From positions 1-35,131 of the forward strand of contig URFM01000039.1 of assembly GCA_900547035.1 (NCBI GenBank): a stretch of DNA of 35,131 nt. The letters are read 5' to 3'. The position numbers were made by a program, and so were the translations under genes. This stretch comes from an uncultured Clostridium sp. GTDB lineage: Bacteria > Bacillota > Clostridia > Lachnospirales > Lachnospiraceae. The notes below the pieces were generated by a model, which saw only the letters and a program-made list of their open reading frames with translations, was not told where the DNA came from and searched no databases. Shown piece after piece: positions 3,579-31,228 of the stretch. Within the stretch, counting starts at the first letter, position 1. Every line of letters starts with the position of its first letter.

Positions 3579-4037
3579 TTAGCGGAAAACGCCAGTTTTC
3601 GTTCCCCTTGTTACATGTCCATAGCTGTCCCATTCCGTGTAAACATAGGGAGAATCCGGAGTAGTGCCATTTTCTGTGAAAGTATAGGTTTCACCATTAT
3701 AGCTGCGGTCTCCGGTTACCATTTTGCAGGAATTATTGTCAAAGTAGTAGACATTTCCGTTGATCTTCATGATGCCTCCCTGAAGCTCGCCGGTATCGGC
3801 AGCATAGTACCAGGTGTTGTCCCTCTGAATCCAGCCAGTTCTTAAAATCTGATCGTTTCCAAAGTAGAACCAGTGGTTTTTGTAAAGAACCCAGTTGTTG
3901 GTGCAGTAGGAACCGTCGCCCCACTGATATTTGGTACCCTGGGAAGTGGAAACAAATCCTGCTGCCAAGGATGTAAATGCGGAGCCGGCGGTCAGGGCCA
4001 GAGCAAGAGAAATGGTTGCGAAGCGTTTTAATTTCAT
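3579..4037 (-). CDS. Small secreted cell-wall/choline-binding-repeat protein
   Basis: This 152-residue protein begins at ATG 4037 behind a GGGGGA site; an in-frame extension to 4118 would run into the promoter and was rejected. Residues 1-26 form a Sec signal peptide with an Ala-rich end (SLAA). The mature protein is made mainly of aromatic repeats of the cell-wall/glucan-binding type: NHWFYFGNDQILRTGW (about 54-69), NTWYYAADTGELQGG (74-88) and GNVYYFDNNSCKMVTG (94-109), with a degenerate fourth. No catalytic domain is attached, unlike most members. It may be a surface adhesin or wall-stress protein. Expression appears to be governed by the MerR-type promoter at 4088-4118. Confidence 0.85.
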   Translation of the reverse strand: MKLKRFATISLALALTAGSAFTSLAAGFVSTSQGTKYQWGDGSYCTNNWVLYKNHWFYFGNDQILRTGWIQRDNTWYYAADTGELQGGIMKINGNVYYFDNNSCKMVTGDRSYNGETYTFTENGTTPDSPYVYTEWDSYGHVTRGTKTGVFR

Positions 4038-4087
4038 AGAAAAATCCCCCTTTGATGGATGTTTTATCTTGTACTGCTTACAGGAAC

Positions 4088-4118
4088 AGTGTACACCCTG
4101 GAGCAGCTCCAGGGTCAA
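4088..4118 (-). promoter_or_regulatory. MerR-family-type promoter/operator for the cell-wall-repeat gene
   Basis: Reading the minus strand, -35 TTGACC (4118-4113) and -10 TACACT (4093-4088) are 19 bases apart. The spacer is filled by a perfect dyad, ACCCTGGAGC-N1-GCTCCAGGGT, at 4095-4115. An over-long 19-base spacer carrying a GC-rich dyad is the hallmark of promoters untwisted by MerR-family activators. It points at the gene starting at 4037, with a leader of about 40 bases. No MerR-type gene is in the window. Confidence 0.8.
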
Positions 4119-4156
4119 GGAACGTAATCAATTCGTAAGGGATTGGAAGAAAAATG

Positions 4157-4888
4157 TCAGATCCAGCCGCCGTCCAGTCCGATAACCTGGCCGGTAAGAT
4201 AAGAATTTTTATACCCCAGATGATATACCAGGTCCGCCACCTCTTCCGCCTTCCCCAGGCGGCCGGCAGGGATTTCATCTACCAGAGCAATGAGGTCTTC
4301 TTCCGACATCCACTGGTTCATTTCCGTGTCAATCGCTCCGCAGGCTACAGCGTTGACCTGAATATTGGAGGGGGCAAGTTCTTTTGCCAACGCCTTGGTG
4401 AGGGCATTGATTCCGCCTTTGGTGGCAGAGTAAGCTGCCTCACAGGAGGCGCCGCAGACGCCCCATACAGAGGAAATGTTGATGATTTTTCCTTGCTGCT
4501 GCTGTACCATATAGGGAATAGCAAGCTTGCAGCAGTTAAAAGCAGAGGTAAGATTCATGTGAAGCATTCGCTCCCAATCCTGGGAAGACATGTCCTGAAG
4601 TAAGCCGATATAGGAAACACCGGCATTGTTAACCAGAACGTCTACGCCTCCGAATCTAGTTTTTATTTTTGAGAAGAGCTCCTGGCAGCAGCTCATATCG
4701 CCCATATCGCCTAAATAAGCAAGGCATGGAACCTGGAACCCTTCGATTTCCTTTTGCGTTTGAAGCAGACGGTCTTTGGTACGGATGCAGCTGATGACTA
4801 CGTTGTAGCCTTTTTTGGCAAATTTGACAGCGATGGCTTTGCCGATGCCGCGGGAGGCACCGGTAACAAGAACAGTTTTTCTGGACAT
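4157..4888 (-). CDS. Short-chain dehydrogenase/reductase, FabG-like 3-oxoacyl-ACP reductase type
   Basis: This 243-residue NAD(P)-dependent oxidoreductase has the classical short-chain fold. The nucleotide-binding TGASRGIG is at residues 9-16, NNAG at 87-90, Ser140 in INISS, and the catalytic Tyr153-x3-Lys157 in YSATKGG. Length is standard. ATG 4888 has an excellent AGGAAGGAG site. The closest role by motif is 3-oxoacyl-ACP reductase, but it stands outside any fatty-acid gene cluster and other carbonyl substrates are possible. It shares strand with the cell-wall-repeat gene, but the MerR-type promoter between them suggests separate control. No terminator with a T run follows it. Confidence 0.88.
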   Translation of the reverse strand: MSRKTVLVTGASRGIGKAIAVKFAKKGYNVVISCIRTKDRLLQTQKEIEGFQVPCLAYLGDMGDMSCCQELFSKIKTRFGGVDVLVNNAGVSYIGLLQDMSSQDWERMLHMNLTSAFNCCKLAIPYMVQQQQGKIINISSVWGVCGASCEAAYSATKGGINALTKALAKELAPSNIQVNAVACGAIDTEMNQWMSEEDLIALVDEIPAGRLGKAEEVADLVYHLGYKNSYLTGQVIGLDGGWI

Positions 4889-4947
4889 ATGGAATCTCCT
4901 TCCTCAAAAAGCAGCAGTTTAACATTCATTTACCGTCAGCAACAGCT

Positions 4948-4975
4948 CAGGACATTCGCTGTCCTGAACGGTTAC
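4948..4975 (+). repeat. Hairpin ending in a dispersed CCTGAACRGYTAC-type motif
   Basis: CAGGACA (4948-4954) pairs with TGTCCTG (4960-4966), and CCTGAACGGTTAC ends at 4975. The same terminal motif occurs in other intergenic regions of this window (7604, 8705 reversed, 8797, 13359, 31246), so this looks like one copy of a small dispersed element. It sits in the divergent gap between the dehydrogenase and trxB. Confidence 0.5.
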
Positions 4976-5087
4976 CATTATTATAAAATCTTCCCGGAAG
5001 GAATGCAAGAGGACGCAGGAAGGGGGAAAACTCCATGGAACCATAAGAGAATCGTAAGAAAATTCCCTGCAATAAATTAAGATCTTG

Positions 5088-7587: not shown

Positions 7588-7646
7588 AGTTCAGATCAAA
7601 GTTCCGAACAGCTGTTAAATATAGAAAGGAATGGACAGCGTCTGCT

Positions 7647-8177
7647 TTAGAATTCCGGTTCAATAAGTCCATAGGTTCCATTTTTTCTGCGGTAAACTAC
7701 ATTTACCTGATCGGTGTCTGCATTGAGGAACACGTAAAAATTGTGTCCAAGCATTTCCATCTGCAGGCAGGCTTCCTCAGGATCAATGGGTTTGATGGCA
7801 AATTTCTTTGTTTTGACAATTCGGATATCTTCCTCCGGATGCTCGTCCTCTTCCTCCATAAAGGCCTGGGAGAAAGAGAGGGCGGATTGTTTTTTGTCAA
7901 TTAGTTTTTTTCTATATCGGCGGATCTGGCGTTCAATAACCTCCTCTACCAGATCGATGGAAACATACATGTCTGTGCTGGACTCTTCAGCGCGGATGGT
8001 ATTGCCCTTGATGGGGATGGTTACCTCAATTTTTTGACGGTCCTTCTGAGCGCTTAGAGCTACGATCACTTCAGTATCGGGAGTGAAGAAGTGTTCCAGT
8101 TTGCCAATTTTCTTCTCCACCATGGCTCTCAGTCCTGGAGTTACCTCAATATTTCTTCCTGTGATGGTATAACGCAT
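7647..8177 (-). CDS. hpf: Long-form ribosome hibernation-promoting factor
   Basis: This 176-residue protein binds the ribosome and dimerises it into inactive 100S particles in stationary phase. The N-terminal domain (about 1-100) has the RaiA/HPF start MRYTITGRNIEVTPGLR and the basic RRYRKKL stretch. A charged linker with EEEDEHPEED follows. The C-terminal dimerisation domain (about 120-176) contains KPIDPEEACLQMEMLGHNF. The two-domain length is the long form typical of Firmicutes. ATG 8177 follows AAGGAG (8186-8191, minus strand). A promoter is visible at 8208-8236. The adjacency to secA and prfB is conserved in many Firmicutes. Confidence 0.95.
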   Translation of the reverse strand: MRYTITGRNIEVTPGLRAMVEKKIGKLEHFFTPDTEVIVALSAQKDRQKIEVTIPIKGNTIRAEESSTDMYVSIDLVEEVIERQIRRYRKKLIDKKQSALSFSQAFMEEEDEHPEEDIRIVKTKKFAIKPIDPEEACLQMEMLGHNFYVFLNADTDQVNVVYRRKNGTYGLIEPEF

Positions 8178-8207
8178 ATAATCAACTCCTTTTCTTGGGA
8201 TAACCCT

Positions 8208-8236
8208 AGTATAACATATTTATCCTGAAAATACAA
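8208..8236 (-). promoter_or_regulatory. Promoter of hpf
   Basis: On the minus strand, -35 TTGTAT (8236-8231) is 17 bases from -10 TATACT (8213-8208). The start codon is about 30 bases downstream. The sequence beyond it, 8220-8310, is markedly AT-rich. Confidence 0.7.
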
Positions 8237-8311
8237 TTTAAAATAGAGGATTGTTCTGACAATTTATCTTAATTTTTTATAAAAATAGGCTTTATAGATA
8301 AAATACACAGG

Positions 8312-8569
8312 TTATCCGTCAGCTGTGTTGCCCCCTGATTTGTCAAGGTAAATTCGTGTATTTTATGAGGAAATTGTGAAGTTTATGAGAACTATACAAA
8401 AATAAAGAAAGTGAAAAGATTTTGTAAAATCCCTTGAAACGTAACTATGGGGATTGTGGATAATGTGGATAACTCGGTGTATAACTAAAATTCGCTATAA
8501 AATCGGACAAGTTTTCGGTGGATAAGTCTGGGGAGAAGTGTGGATGAAAAATGTGGATACTGTGGAAAT
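8312..8569. other. DnaA-box cluster beside an AT-rich stretch (origin-like or DnaA-titration site)
   Basis: Two perfect DnaA boxes (TGTGGATAA, complement of TTATCCACA) stand in direct tandem at 8455-8463 and 8464-8472. Near matches follow in the same orientation: 8476-8484 (7/9), 8517-8525 (8/9), 8539-8547 (8/9), and another tandem pair 8552-8560 (8/9) and 8561-8569 (7/9). One opposing weak match, TTATCCGTC, is at 8312-8320. That gives seven co-oriented boxes in 115 bases, flanked by AT-rich DNA at about 8220-8310. No dnaA, dnaN or rpmH gene is in the window. DnaA binding is expected from the boxes; whether this is oriC, a secondary cluster that titrates DnaA, or a regulatory site is unresolved. 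Confidence 0.75.
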
Positions 8570-8661
8570 TACCAGAATCGAACATAGTTTTTGTGCAATG
8601 TGCTTAGTTGACCATAAGAAAGGGGAAAAAGTTAATTTTATATGAACGTGGCAGGAAGCGG

Positions 8662-8690
8662 TTGAATAAATTTCTTCTTAGTGCTACAAT
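8662..8690 (+). promoter_or_regulatory. Probable secA promoter
   Basis: -35 TTGAAT (8662-8667) and -10 TACAAT (8685-8690) are separated by exactly 17 bases. Transcription would start near 8698, giving a secA leader of about 255 bases that contains the nested inverted repeat at 8705-8808. Confidence 0.65.
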
Positions 8691-8704
8691 ATCTTAGATT
8701 ATAT

Positions 8705-8808
8705 GTAACAGTTCGGGATGGCGGAAAACGAGGGCAAAAGCAGGCCTCAAGTTTGTTTATAAGCATGTTTTTGCCCTCGTTTTCACATCGGATATCCCGA
8801 AGGGTTAC
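8705..8808 (+). repeat. 104-bp nested inverted repeat in the secA leader
   Basis: The outer arms are GTAACAGTTCGGGAT (8705-8719) and ATCCCGAAGGGTTAC (8794-8808), which pair at 13 of 15 positions. Inside them, AAAACGAGGGCAAAA (8725-8739) pairs perfectly with TTTTGCCCTCGTTTT (8769-8783). The inner hairpin ends in TTTT and so resembles an intrinsic terminator. The whole could be an attenuator of secA transcription or a small non-autonomous element with terminal inverted repeats. Its ends match the motif dispersed elsewhere in the window. From 8809 to 8952 I see nothing but the ribosome site. Confidence 0.7.
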
Positions 8809-8952
8809 GACTGCATCGCAAGCGTAGCTGTCTGCAGGCATTTACAGAATAAGCGTGGTACATGCGGCAGATACTAGGAAGAGAACTGTCCTGACAGGCG
8901 GGGGCGCTGTTTGAGATGGATTTATATAAGGAAGAAGTTAGGAGAGCATACC

Positions 8953-11523
8953 ATGAATTTGATTGAAAAGGTATTCGGGACTCACAGTGACAGAGAGCTG
9001 AAGCTGATTCGGCCGATTGTGGCAAAGATCGAAGGCCTTCGGCCGGAAATGGTGGCCAAATCCGATGAGGAACTTCGGGACCAGACCAGAATCTTTAAAG
9101 AGCGTTTGGAAAAAGGCGAGACACTGGACGATATTCTGCCGGAAGCGTTTGCCACAGTGCGGGAAGCAGCCAGAAGAGTACTGAATATGGAACATTTCCC
9201 GGTACAGCTGATTGGAGGCATCGTGCTCCATCAGGGCCGTATCGCGGAGATGAAAACAGGTGAAGGAAAAACGCTTGTGTCCACTTGCCCGGCGTACTTA
9301 AATGCTTTGGCAGGAAAAGGCGTCCAGATTGTAACGGTCAATGACTATCTGGCAAAACGTGACGCCGAATGGATGGGGCAGGTTCACCGTTTCCTGGGAC
9401 TTACCGTAGGAGTGGTTCTCAATGAGATGAATTCCCAGGAGAGAAAGAAGGCCTATGCCTGTGATATTACCTATGTAACCAACAATGAGCTGGGATTTGA
9501 TTATCTTCGCGATAACATGGCTATCTACAAAGAACAGCTGGTTTTGCGAGACCTGGACTACTGTATTATCGATGAGGTGGACTCTGTGCTGATCGATGAG
9601 GCCAGAACTCCTTTGATTATTTCTGGCCAGAGCGGTAAATCTACCAAGCTTTATGAGGTGTGCGATATTTTGGCACGTCAGTTGGAGCGGGGTACGGTTT
9701 CCAAAGAGTTTTCCAAGATGGACGCCATTATGGGGGAGGAAATCGAGGAGACCGGAGACTTTATTGTAGATGAAAAAGATAAGGTTGTGAATCTGACCGA
9801 GCAGGGTGTTCGGAAGGTGGAAGATTTCTTCCATATTGAGAACCTGGCAGATCCGGAAAATCTGGAGATTCAGCACAACATTATTTTGGCCCTTCGCGCA
9901 AACTATTTAATGTTTAAAGACAAGGACTATGTGGTAAAAGATAACGAAGTCCTGATTGTAGACGAGTTTACAGGACGTATTATGCCTGGCCGCCGCTATT
10001 CCGATGGACTTCATCAGGCTATCGAGGCGAAGGAACATGTAAATGTCCGCCGGGAGAGCCGTACGCTGGCTACCATCACATTCCAGAATTTCTTTAATAA
10101 ATTCCGCAAGAAAGCCGGTATGACAGGTACGGCTCTGACGGAGGAGAAGGAGTTTAGGAACATCTACTCGATGGATGTAATCTCCATTCCTACGAACCGC
10201 CCCATGATTCGTAAGGACCTGGAGGATGCGGTTTACAAGACAAAGAAAGAGAAATTTAAGGCGGTTGTGGATGAGGTTGAGGCGGCTCATAAGAAGGGGC
10301 AGCCGGTTCTGGTGGGTACTATCGCCATTGAGACTTCAGAACTTTTAAGCGGTATGCTCAAGAGACGGGGCATCCCACATAAGGTGCTGAACGCCAAATT
10401 CCATGAGCTGGAGGCGGAAATCGTAGCGGATGCAGGTATCCACGGAGCGGTGACCATTGCCACCAACATGGCAGGTCGTGGTACGGATATTAAGCTGGAC
10501 GATGAGGCGAAAGCTCTGGGAGGACTAAAGATCATCGGTACGGAACGTCATGAGTCCAGACGTATTGACAATCAGCTGAGAGGCCGTTCCGGACGTCAGG
10601 GTGATCCGGGAGAATCCCGGTTCTATCTGTCCCTGGAGGACGACTTGCTGAGACTGTTTGGCTCTGACCGCCTGATGAAAATGTTTGAGGCTATGGGTGT
10701 GCCGGAAGGGGAGCAGATTGAGCATCGGATGCTGTCCAATGCCATTGAAAAAGCCCAGATGAAGATTGAATTCAATAACTATGGCATTCGTGAGCAGCTG
10801 TTAAAATACGATGAAGTAAATAATGAGCAGAGAGAAGTAATCTATGCGGAGCGCCGTAAGGTTCTGGACGGAGACAACATGCGGGATCTGATCCTGAAAA
10901 TGATTACTGAAATTGTAGAGAATGCGGTAGATATGTCCATCTCTGACGATCAGTCTCCTGAAAGTTGGGATATGAAGGAACTGAACAATCTGCTTTTGCC
11001 TATTATTCCTCTAAAGCCTATTAAATTGCCGGAAGAGAGCGGCAAGATGAAGAAAAACGAGCTGAAGCATATGCTGAAGGAGGAAGCGATTAAGCTTTAC
11101 GAGGCGAAAGAGGCGGAGTTCCCGGAGACAGAGCAGATTCGTGAGATCGAGCGGGTAGTACTTCTGAAAGTGATCGATAACAAGTGGATGGCTCATCTGG
11201 ATGATATGGATCAGCTGCGCGAGGGGATCGGACTCCAGGCATATGGACAGAGAGATCCGGTTGTGGAGTACAAGATGCAGGCCTACGAGATGTATGAGGC
11301 CATGATGGCCTCTATCCAGGAAGAGACCGTACGTATTCTTTTCCATATCCGTGTTGAACAGAAGGTAGAGCGTGAATCCAACGTGAAGGTAACCGGCACC
11401 AATCGCGACCCGGGTTCCGCCAGCGCTCCCAAGAAGAGGGCAGAACAGAAGATCTATCCTAACGATCCCTGTCCCTGCGGCTCCGGCAAAAAGTACAAAC
11501 AGTGCTGCGGCCGGATGAAATAA
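8953..11523 (+). CDS. secA: Preprotein translocase ATPase SecA
   Basis: This 856-residue motor pushes unfolded preproteins through SecYEG at the membrane. The start ATG 8953 has AGGAG at 8940-8944; the upstream in-frame start at 8911 lacks a site. Walker A MKTGEGKT is at residues 100-107 and the DEVD box at 207-210 within [16 protein letters not shown]. Helicase motifs GTDIKLDD and [13 protein letters not shown] are present. The C-terminal zinc-binding SEC-C tail has Cys840, Cys842, Cys851 and Cys852 ([14 protein letters not shown]), which bind SecB or ribosomes in family members. Length is normal for a Firmicute SecA1. prfB begins 25 bases later, so the two are probably one operon. Confidence 0.97.
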
Positions 11524-11548: not shown

Positions 11549-12686
11549 GTGGTTGAGTTCGATAATTTTAAACATACGTTGTCCACGTATGACAAACCAT
11601 TAGTGGAAGTGAGGGATTCACTTTGACCTGGACGGCAAAGAAAGACGGATTGCAGAATTAGATAAGTCCATGGAAGAGCCGGGTTTTTGGGATGACCCGG
11701 AGAAGTCTACCCGCATGGTCCGGGAGGCCAAGCATTTAAAAGACGAGGTGGACACTTATAAATCTCTGGAGCAGGCTTATGAGGACATCCAGGTAATGAT
11801 TCAGATGGGGTATGAGGAGAACGATGCTTCTCTGATTCCTGAAATCCAGCAGATGCTGGATGATTTTGCAAAGACTCTGGAGGAGATGCGGCTGAAGCTG
11901 CTTCTTTCCGGTGAATATGACAGCAACAACGCTATTCTGCGTCTGAATGCCGGCGCCGGAGGCACTGAGTCCTGCGATTGGTGCAGCATGCTTTATCGGA
12001 TGTATTGCCGTTGGGCGGAGCGCAAAGGTTTTAAGTATGAGGTGCTGGACTATCTGGACGGAGAAGAAGCGGGAATTAAGTCAGTTACTATTCAAATCAA
12101 TGGGGAAAATGCCTACGGCTATTTACGTTCCGAGCATGGCGTACATCGCCTGGTGCGGATTTCTCCCTTTAATGCGGCGGGAAAGCGGCAGACTTCCTTC
12201 GTGTCCTGTGATGTGATGCCGGATTTGGAGGATGATATCGATATTGAAATTAATCCTGATGATATCCGAATCGACACCTATCGTTCCAGCGGCGCCGGCG
12301 GCCAGCACATCAACAAGACTTCCTCCGCCATCCGTATCACGCATTTCCCCACAGGAATCGTGGTTACCTGCCAGAATGAGCGGTCCCAGTTCCAGAATAA
12401 GGATAAAGCTATGCAGATGTTGAAGGCTAAGCTGTATATGCTGAAGCAGCAGGAACAGGCGGCCAAGGCTGCGGGAATCCGGGGAGATGTGAAGGAAATT
12501 GGCTGGGGAAACCAGATCCGTTCCTATGTGCTCCAGCCCTATACCATGGTGAAGGATCACCGTACCGGTGAGGAAACCGGAAATGTCGATGCCGTTCTGG
12601 ATGGAGGAATTGACCAGTTTATCAGTGCCTATCTGCGCTGGATGAGTCTGGGATGCCCGGATAAAAACGCGGGAGCGGACGACTAA
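11549..12686 (+). CDS. prfB: Peptide chain release factor 2, made by programmed +1 frameshift
   Basis: RF2 ends translation at UGA and UAA. The gene is in two frames: 25 codons from GTG 11549 (behind AAGAAGG) end at CTT 11621-11623 and an in-frame TGA at 11624-11626. After a +1 slip, reading resumes with GAC at 11625 and continues to 12686, giving about 378 residues. The stop-recognition SPF is at residues 205-207 and the hydrolysis motif GGQ at 250-252 within [14 protein letters not shown], the same numbering as E. coli RF2. The join is 11549-11623 plus 11625-12686. Annotation as a protein starting at 11670 would lose about 40 residues. Confidence 0.96.
11607..11627 (+). promoter_or_regulatory. 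Autoregulatory frameshift site of prfB
   Basis: The slip codon CTT (11621-11623) is followed by TGA-C. An internal Shine-Dalgarno-like GAGGG (11611-11615) precedes it by 5 bases, two more than in E. coli. AAGTGA (11607-11612) can pair with TCACTT (11618-11623), so the stimulator and slip codon also lie in a small dyad. When RF2 is scarce the ribosome pauses at UGA and shifts, restoring RF2. Confidence 0.9.
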
Positions 12687-30295: not shown

Positions 30296-31228
30296 TTAGG
30301 ATTGAAAATATTCGTAAAGCAGACTGATGGTTTCCTGCGCAATCGGAGAAAGCGGAGTATCAGCACGTTTGATCCAGCCGATCTCGGAATGGATCGGGCA
30401 ATCCCTTAAAAGAAGGGTACGGTGGGGATAAGGATAGGTTTGCTGAGCACACTTTGATCTGGGGATATTATAGTCGGAGTTTAGAAAATAAGCATCCGTA
30501 TTAGCTAAAACTTCGTAATTGGCAGCACGGGAGGAAGTAACCATTCTGCTGGCATTGGCAGGAATATGGAGCCGTTCCAAAATATCGGAAAATGGCCCCT
30601 GATCCATATAATCGTAAAGTATAATAGGGTATGGTTCCAAAAGTTCCGGTTGAATTACGTTTTCCGGGTGACGGAAGAGCGGATTTCCGGGACCGACTGT
30701 AACACCTATACTTAATGTAGCAATAGGGAAAAATTGCAGATTCATTGCTTCCTGCTGCTTGGAATATAACTGAATGTAGCAGTTCCATTGGCGCATCAAA
30801 CCAATTTCTGCAGTCCCATTAGCTACCAGGGTCATAACGCGGTTATCGAAACTTTCATACTGGTTAATACGGATTTTTTGGTCCTGATATTTTTTTAAAA
30901 GTTTAGCGCAGATCTCACTGGTAAAATAGAAACCATTTGTTACAAGACTGAAGGTTTGTTCGTAATTACGGCTTCGATTAGAGAGAACACTGTTTAGCTG
31001 ATTGATTTGGAGTTGAATGGGGATGATATAATCCAGAAAGGTTTGTCCAAATGGTGTCAGATCAATTCCTCTGGCTGAGCGGTTGAAAATGGTATCTCCC
31101 AGTTCGGATTCCAGGCTGGAAATGGAGGCGGAAAGGACGGATTGGGAGATAAAAAGATTGGAAGCTGCCTTGTTGATGGAACCGGCGTTTGCCACTTCAA
31201 TCACGTATTTGATTTGATTTAGGGTCAT
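30296..31228 (-). CDS. LysR-type transcriptional regulator
   Basis: This 310-residue regulator has the N-terminal winged helix-turn-helix (residues 1-60, MTLNQIKYVIEVANAGSINK with FISQSVLSASISSLE) and a C-terminal co-inducer domain from about 90. ATG 31228 has GGAAGGAGGAG. It converges on the importer/hydrolase operon and shares its terminator. It is the only regulator of this kind in the window, so it probably responds to the imported substrate and acts at 19984-20038, which lies more than 10 kb away. That assignment is inference. Confidence 0.9.
   Translation of the reverse strand: MTLNQIKYVIEVANAGSINKAASNLFISQSVLSASISSLESELGDTIFNRSARGIDLTPFGQTFLDYIIPIQLQINQLNSVLSNRSRNYEQTFSLVTNGFYFTSEICAKLLKKYQDQKIRINQYESFDNRVMTLVANGTAEIGLMRQWNCYIQLYSKQQEAMNLQFFPIATLSIGVTVGPGNPLFRHPENVIQPELLEPYPIILYDYMDQGPFSDILERLHIPANASRMVTSSRAANYEVLANTDAYFLNSDYNIPRSKCAQQTYPYPHRTLLLRDCPIHSEIGWIKRADTPLSPIAQETISLLYEYFQS

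Follow-up and report, generated by a model that had tools for sequence, protein, structure and literature searches.

The stretch analysed here (hereafter the window) comprises the 35,131 nucleotides of contig URFM01000039.1 (assembly GCA_900547035.1), from an uncultured Clostridium sp. of the Lachnospiraceae. The element under study is a cluster of DnaA-box-like sites located in the gap between hpf, which encodes a ribosome hibernation promoting factor on the minus strand, and secA, which lies on the plus strand. Eight co-oriented sites matching the DnaA box at seven or more of its nine positions are packed within 115 bases of the minus strand (8455–8569). The perfect box (9/9), TTATCCACA, occurs there twice in abutting copies (8455–8463 and 8464–8472), three sites match at 8/9 (8517–8525, 8539–8547 and 8552–8560) and three at 7/9 (8476–8484, 8529–8537 and 8561–8569), the first of which, TTATACACC, has a single mismatch to the looser box consensus TTATNCACA. 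The sequence-only reading of this DNA had reported seven co-oriented boxes in 115 bases; the cluster, the co-orientation and the two perfect tandem boxes stand, while the count has to be raised to eight. Five same-strand sites have at most one mismatch to TTATCCACA, whereas dinucleotide shuffling of the whole window, done 300 times, gave a highest count of one such site in 265 shuffles and of two in the other 35. The AT-rich surroundings of the boxes, also pointed out by that reading, are real: with a GC content of 0.389, the stretch 8001–9000 is the lowest of the 35 tabulated kilobases. From these matches, we infer that DnaA probably binds the cluster.

Conservation of the boxes and their linkage to hpf

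The region upstream of hpf was read in three sets of loci: a close set made of the best 80 of 105 hpf relatives (the two closest being metagenome-assembled genomes labelled Enterocloster, with 98% protein identity, which makes this genus the probable source of the window), an order-level sample (130 loci, read from 146 genomes of which 133 have hpf) and a phylum-level sample (69 new loci, read from 96 genomes of which 92 have hpf). A cluster was defined as at least three boxes of at most one mismatch within 150 bp, and an abutting tandem as two adjoining boxes of at most one mismatch each. In the close set, a cluster precedes hpf at 60 of the 80 loci and a tandem at 60 as well, with both at 59, and 40 shuffled sets yielded neither; among the 20 loci devoid of a cluster, three have less than 260 bp of upstream sequence and four a short gap to a divergent secA (271–279 bp). 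Order-level loci include 39 clusters and 27 tandems 5′ of hpf out of 130 (24 with both), against no cluster and a mean of 0.025 tandems in 40 shuffles, and a control stretch located 1000–1500 bp upstream held no cluster in any of 119 loci. At the level of the phylum, a tandem lies 5′ of hpf, or of a cspA–hpf pair, in 17 of 69 loci. Over all sets, an abutting tandem is present in 99 of 279 hpf-upstream regions.

When the window was aligned with 29 loci, the boxes appeared as near-invariant columns in a poorly conserved background, the other conserved blocks being 8576–8617, 8381–8403 and the candidate promoters of hpf and secA. The architecture of the module recurs too. A third site beginning with TTAT lies exactly 3 bp upstream of the tandem in 80 of 97 abutting tandems, its commonest variants being TTATACACC (23 cases), TTATACACA (13) and TTATTAACA (8). 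A box about 53 bp from the first base of the tandem is found at many related hpf loci. The consensus of the relatives at 8552–8560 is the full TTATCCACA, and some of them have a second doublet at this place. The cultivable relative Lacrimispora celerecrescens (L023) is among the species carrying the module.

Several observations show that the cluster is tied to hpf, and not to secA or to the gap between the two genes. In the close set, it occurs in 41 of 46 loci where secA is the divergent upstream neighbour, in six of 18 where secA lies downstream on the hpf strand, and in 13 of 16 where no secA was seen in the available sequence. The upstream neighbour of hpf, as judged by open frames, varies across the order-level sample, and in ten of the phylum-level tandem loci cspA stands between the boxes and hpf, so that the boxes precede cspA. 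The strand of the tandem follows hpf at 102 of 277 de-duplicated loci and is the opposite one at only two. This orientation holds in all nine genomes for which the fork direction was read from coordinates relative to dnaA (the skew being checked for G001 only), whether hpf is head-on to the fork (G001, G003, G004) or co-directional with it (G116, G126, G156, G161, G196, G203). Across species, the boxes are thus linked to and oriented with one gene, as expected of a DnaA-regulated promoter, though many genomes lack this arrangement.

Tandems also occur elsewhere. At least one tandem (up to one mismatch) is present in 97 of the 146 order-level genomes, against six occurrences in all for the reversed control pattern. 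Among the 150 tandems listed (73 genomes), 22, from 21 genomes, fall in the kilobase 5′ of hpf and all share its strand, against an expectation of about 0.06 from genome length; eight more lie within 15 kb of hpf, seven of them on its strand. [Clostridium] asparagiforme DSM 15981 has a pair of tandems, spaced by about 165 bp (L117; G001:C1:5237738-5237920), between murC and a gene pair encoding a DnaB_2-domain protein and a dnaI-like AAA protein. Pairs of tandems separated by 161–174 bp were found, among the matches listed, in at least 11 further order-level genomes, and boxes precede a DnaB_2-domain gene in G049 as well. The site between murC and the DnaB_2-domain and dnaI-like gene pair is likely a second conserved DnaA target. 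As a separate observation, two loci (L337 and L341) show DnaA-box clusters near tsaD, and Bacillus subtilis has one near gcp, which we take to be the same gene family.

An origin, a titrating cluster or a regulatory site

At face value, a box cluster beside AT-rich DNA, with mixed gene strands on its left side only, might be a second replication origin, permanent or conditional, and the sequence-only reading had proposed an origin or a titrating cluster, with a fork moving rightward. The gene strands are as it described them: to the right, nearly all named genes are on the plus strand for more than 20 kb (a LysR-type gene at 30296–31228 is on the minus strand), while on the left hpf, a short-chain dehydrogenase gene (4157–4888) and a gene for a choline-binding-repeat protein (3579–4118) are minus among plus genes. 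In kilobase steps, however, the GC skew of the window is above zero in 34 of the 35 kilobases, left and right of the cluster alike (only 4001–5000 departs, at −0.002); it neither switches at the boxes nor changes with the mixed left strands. The check suggested at the time, i.e., GC skew and the location of dnaA, was carried further in a complete relative, the chromosome of DSM 15981 (L004 = G001; 6,353,279 bp), which was sampled in 30 stretches of some 20 kb each. There, the skew is positive over 0–3.2 Mb and negative over 3.52–6.30 Mb, with a switch near 6.33 Mb at dnaA (6.332 Mb), whereas its hpf site, at 5.385 Mb, is about 950 kb away from dnaA, within negative skew that includes the sampled surroundings.

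The DnaA-trio, without which the B. subtilis origin does not work (PMC6669920) and which also serves as an origin criterion in PMC7561715, points in the same direction (papers are cited by PMC number throughout). In DSM 15981, copies of the 9-base box form a cluster upstream of dnaA, and the dnaA–dnaN gap holds box-like sites followed by a trio-like TACTAC, which acted as a positive control for the search. The strict form (CTACTA/TACTAC) is missing from the 40 bp on the 3′ side of each of the 99 abutting hpf modules, and likewise from the window, and a looser four-repeat form was found in one of the 99 (L034). On the grounds of skew, position of dnaA in relatives and trio motif, we reject the second origin as extremely improbable, so that only the titrating half of the earlier proposal, which is compatible with all findings at this strongly conserved site, survives.

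With a probability of roughly 0.55, we favour a regulatory site at which DnaA would bind to control the hpf transcription unit and where it would also be held. DnaA would nucleate on the abutting perfect pair and on the variant third box 3 bp away, then spread over the weaker co-oriented boxes. From there, about 110 bp upstream of the first predicted −35 element of hpf, it might alter hpf transcription with the amount or the nucleotide state of free DnaA, so that ribosome hibernation would respond to replication status. Being strong and far from oriC, the cluster could also hold DnaA and add to titration. According to the title of PMC11317965, E. coli DnaA prefers sites paired at short distance, a preference that the abutting boxes would suit. 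Both the regulation of hpf by DnaA and its direction are inferred from sequence; because the boxes do not cover the predicted hpf promoters, we lean slightly towards activation, by analogy with B. subtilis sda.

The rival that deserves most discussion is that of a DnaA-box cluster (DBC) that would buffer free DnaA and delay re-initiation, its place beside hpf being without meaning for this gene. Box composition and co-orientation would suit it, the same type of tandem occurs at several other loci per genome, and B. subtilis initiates early once six DBCs are removed (review PMC5295017). Moreover, since similar tandems recur elsewhere, notably before primosome genes, the element may be regarded as a DBC in the B. 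subtilis sense. The hpf sites of nine genomes with long contigs lie about 5–24% of the genome from dnaA, but we do not use this distance as proof of titration because the values overlap with those of module-free genomes and contig size governed which genomes were taken. Yet titration requires neither a fixed gene nor a fixed strand, whereas 22 of the 150 listed tandems are 5′ of hpf and all on its strand, a linkage that survives rearrangement and both fork directions; PMC5295017 also notes that none of the B. subtilis DBCs has been found to contribute significantly by itself to the control of initiation. Pure titration is a possible, though less likely, explanation. That the boxes serve secA, or both divergent genes, and not hpf, appears improbable: they do stand between the candidate promoters conserved for the two genes, the secA one being about 93 bp away, but clusters are found 5′ of hpf where secA lies downstream (six of 18 in the close set and six of 14 in L134–L163) or was not seen, and the box strand follows hpf. 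Still less credible is a site for some other protein merely resembling DnaA boxes, to which the further conserved elements flanking the boxes might lend themselves, given that the box is exactly canonical and that DSM 15981 has a cluster of this very 9-mer upstream of its dnaA.

Various results weigh against the regulatory explanation itself. Neither cluster nor tandem was found in 88 of the 130 order-level loci, and 52 of the 69 phylum-level loci have no tandem. On an HPF tree used solely for this count (a weak tree of a short protein), at least 28 changes are required to account for the trait across 273 rows. For as many as 120 of the 150 listed tandems, the contig shows no hpf within 15 kb, and similar tandems occur at the DnaB_2-domain and dnaI-like genes, near tsaD, near a DUF2461 gene (single cases for the latter two) and at other places; with so many tandems away from hpf, the module is not specific to this gene. 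The predicted hpf promoters are about 110 and 220 bp from the tandem, which is far for a classical activator, the consensus scan was no richer in promoter-like sites than shuffles (4 vs. 3.5), and no convincing promoter was detected within 160 bp in nine of the 17 phylum-level tandem loci (two with cspA–hpf and seven devoid of cspA). Regarding the literature, DnaA represses most of the direct B. subtilis targets that PMC4447404 names, and sda is the one that it activates; B. subtilis is translationally active when initiation is blocked (PMC11019786); and the role of E. coli DnaA as a transcription factor is unaffected by changes in nucleotide ratio or by titration (PMC12371093).

A broader proposal, which we hold tentatively and at less than even odds, is that DnaA may directly control ribosome hibernation across much of the phylum (Clostridia and kin) by means of a three-box module preceding hpf or cspA–hpf, accompanied in some of these lineages by a neighbouring Spo0A-like site, while another hotspot precedes the DnaB_2-domain and dnaI-like primosome genes. 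These sites would form a small DnaA regulon fitting helicase loading and translation to replication status.

Neighbouring features and comparison with known systems

The features of the locus are collected in Table 1, in which all promoters are predictions.

Table 1. Coordinates of the genes, boxes and conserved elements around the cluster (positions in the window).
Feature	Position	Strand	Basis
hpf, long-form ribosome hibernation promoting factor (S30AE and S30AE_C domains), presumed target gene	7647..8177	-	domain matches
Candidate hpf promoter TTGTAT-17-TATACT	8208..8236	-	read from sequence and alignment; absent from the consensus-scan list; prediction only
Conserved TTGACA, candidate -35 of an hpf promoter	8341..8346	-	alignment; prediction only
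Conserved element ATTTTTGTATAGTTCTCATAAAC between the boxes and hpf; a palindrome in some relatives	8381..8403	-	30-sequence alignment
Two perfect abutting DnaA boxes TTATCCACATTATCCACA, module core	8455..8472	-	among the best conserved columns, alignment of 30 sequences
Variant third box TTATACACC, placed 3 bp 5′ of the tandem	8476..8484	-	box match and recurrence of the spacing
Fourth box TTATCCACC, 44 bp 5′ of the tandem	8517..8525	-	strongly conserved in the 30-sequence alignment
Further 7/9–8/9 boxes (8529–8537, 8539–8547, 8552–8560, 8561–8569)	8529..8569	-	box matches
Conserved block AATCGAACATAG...TTGACCATAA adjoining the boxes	8576..8617		high column identity, few weaker columns
Candidate secA promoter TTGAAT-17-TACAAT, TG before the -10, conserved	8662..8690	+	alignment and consensus scan
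secA, divergent neighbour	8953..11523	+	gene call

The element ATTTTTGTATAGTTCTCATAAAC is a possible operator. A conserved imperfect palindrome of operator-like appearance (consensus TACAAT...ATTGTA, about 8685–8702) covers the −10 of the candidate secA promoter. The secA leader further holds a 16-base inverted repeat at 8724–8784 (arms gaaaacgagggcaaaa at 8724–8739 and ttttgccctcgttttc at 8769–8784), inside a stretch of about 100 bp that has no counterpart in most or all of the aligned relatives; in sequence, it looks like a small inserted repeat element. Downstream, the profile match of the prfB open frame (11670–12686) starts only at position 31, which would fit the programmed frameshift that prfB usually has near its start.

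Regarding RNA elements, an Rfam search of the window at gathering level returned only a tRNA, and a permissive scan of 7600–9000 gave seven matches, all far below gathering scores, so that an RNA element at the box site was discarded. The same applies to a raiA-motif RNA upstream of hpf: 20 related loci showed no raiA match and only two cspA thermoregulator matches (RF01766), at L264 and L268, in both of which cspA immediately precedes hpf. At such cspA–hpf loci, the genes for cold shock and hibernation likely form one unit. In seven of the ten cspA–hpf tandem loci, a predicted TTGACA promoter lies 66–112 bp beyond the last box, and in another (L275) a predicted TTGACT promoter lies 25 bp beyond it.

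A Spo0A-like heptamer (TGTCGAA/TTCGACA) occurs within 80 bp 3′ of the module in six of 15 phylum-level, seven of 58 close and one of 26 order-level cases, compared with one, zero and two occurrences, respectively, in a control of 160 bp on the 5′ side; the window has none. In the phylum-level loci (L267, L268, L272, L276, L304 and L318), the TTCGACA form stands at a constant spacing of 35–39 bp after the tandem; given its rarity in the close and order-level sets, we regard the heptamer as a side feature.

Nothing on DnaA boxes linked with hpf, ribosome hibernation or Lachnospiraceae was found in our searches of the open-licence literature, as judged partly from titles and the beginnings of abstracts. 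It is still an open question by what means bacteria match translation to chromosome replication, and a conserved, gene-linked DnaA site at a hibernation factor would provide a concrete and testable candidate link in gut Clostridia. To our knowledge, the datA and DARS regions of E. coli are not tied to one gene as the hpf cluster is. These regions (datA, DARS1 and DARS2) are non-coding, lie away from oriC and act on DnaA (PMC4585315); as to the hpf boxes, two conserved elements flank them. The basal unwinding system of oriC, composed of boxes and the DnaA-trio, shares tandem co-oriented boxes with the hpf cluster, but the latter has no strict trio and no skew switch and is not at dnaA.

The B. 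subtilis DBCs resemble the hpf cluster in being made of strong boxes located away from dnaA, at several places per genome, and several DnaA-bound regions of this species also regulate the adjacent gene (PMC4447404, PMC5295017). With its boxes, and with a distance from oriC taken from the relative (about 950 kb), the window cluster falls under the definition of a DBC given in PMC7561715, i.e., at least three boxes at a mean distance below 100 bp, away from oriC. The genes concerned differ: the eight strongest B. subtilis regions listed in PMC4447404 are oriC (two), ywcI/vpr, gcp/ydiF, trmE/jag, ywlC/ywlB, yqeG/sda and yydA/yyzF, and include neither hpf nor secA, while yvyD and secA are absent from the main text of that paper, the table of its 269 weaker regions being outside this statement. 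Neither a place at hpf nor a recurrent three-box module is encountered among these strongest regions. The sda promoter comes nearest, with DnaA boxes beside a gene directly activated by DnaA (PMC4447404), but the presumed target here is a ribosome hibernation factor and its regulation is predicted. The element is of a known kind, but its location is new and well conserved, which suggests that DnaA-box clusters outside B. subtilis occupy other, recurrent genes.
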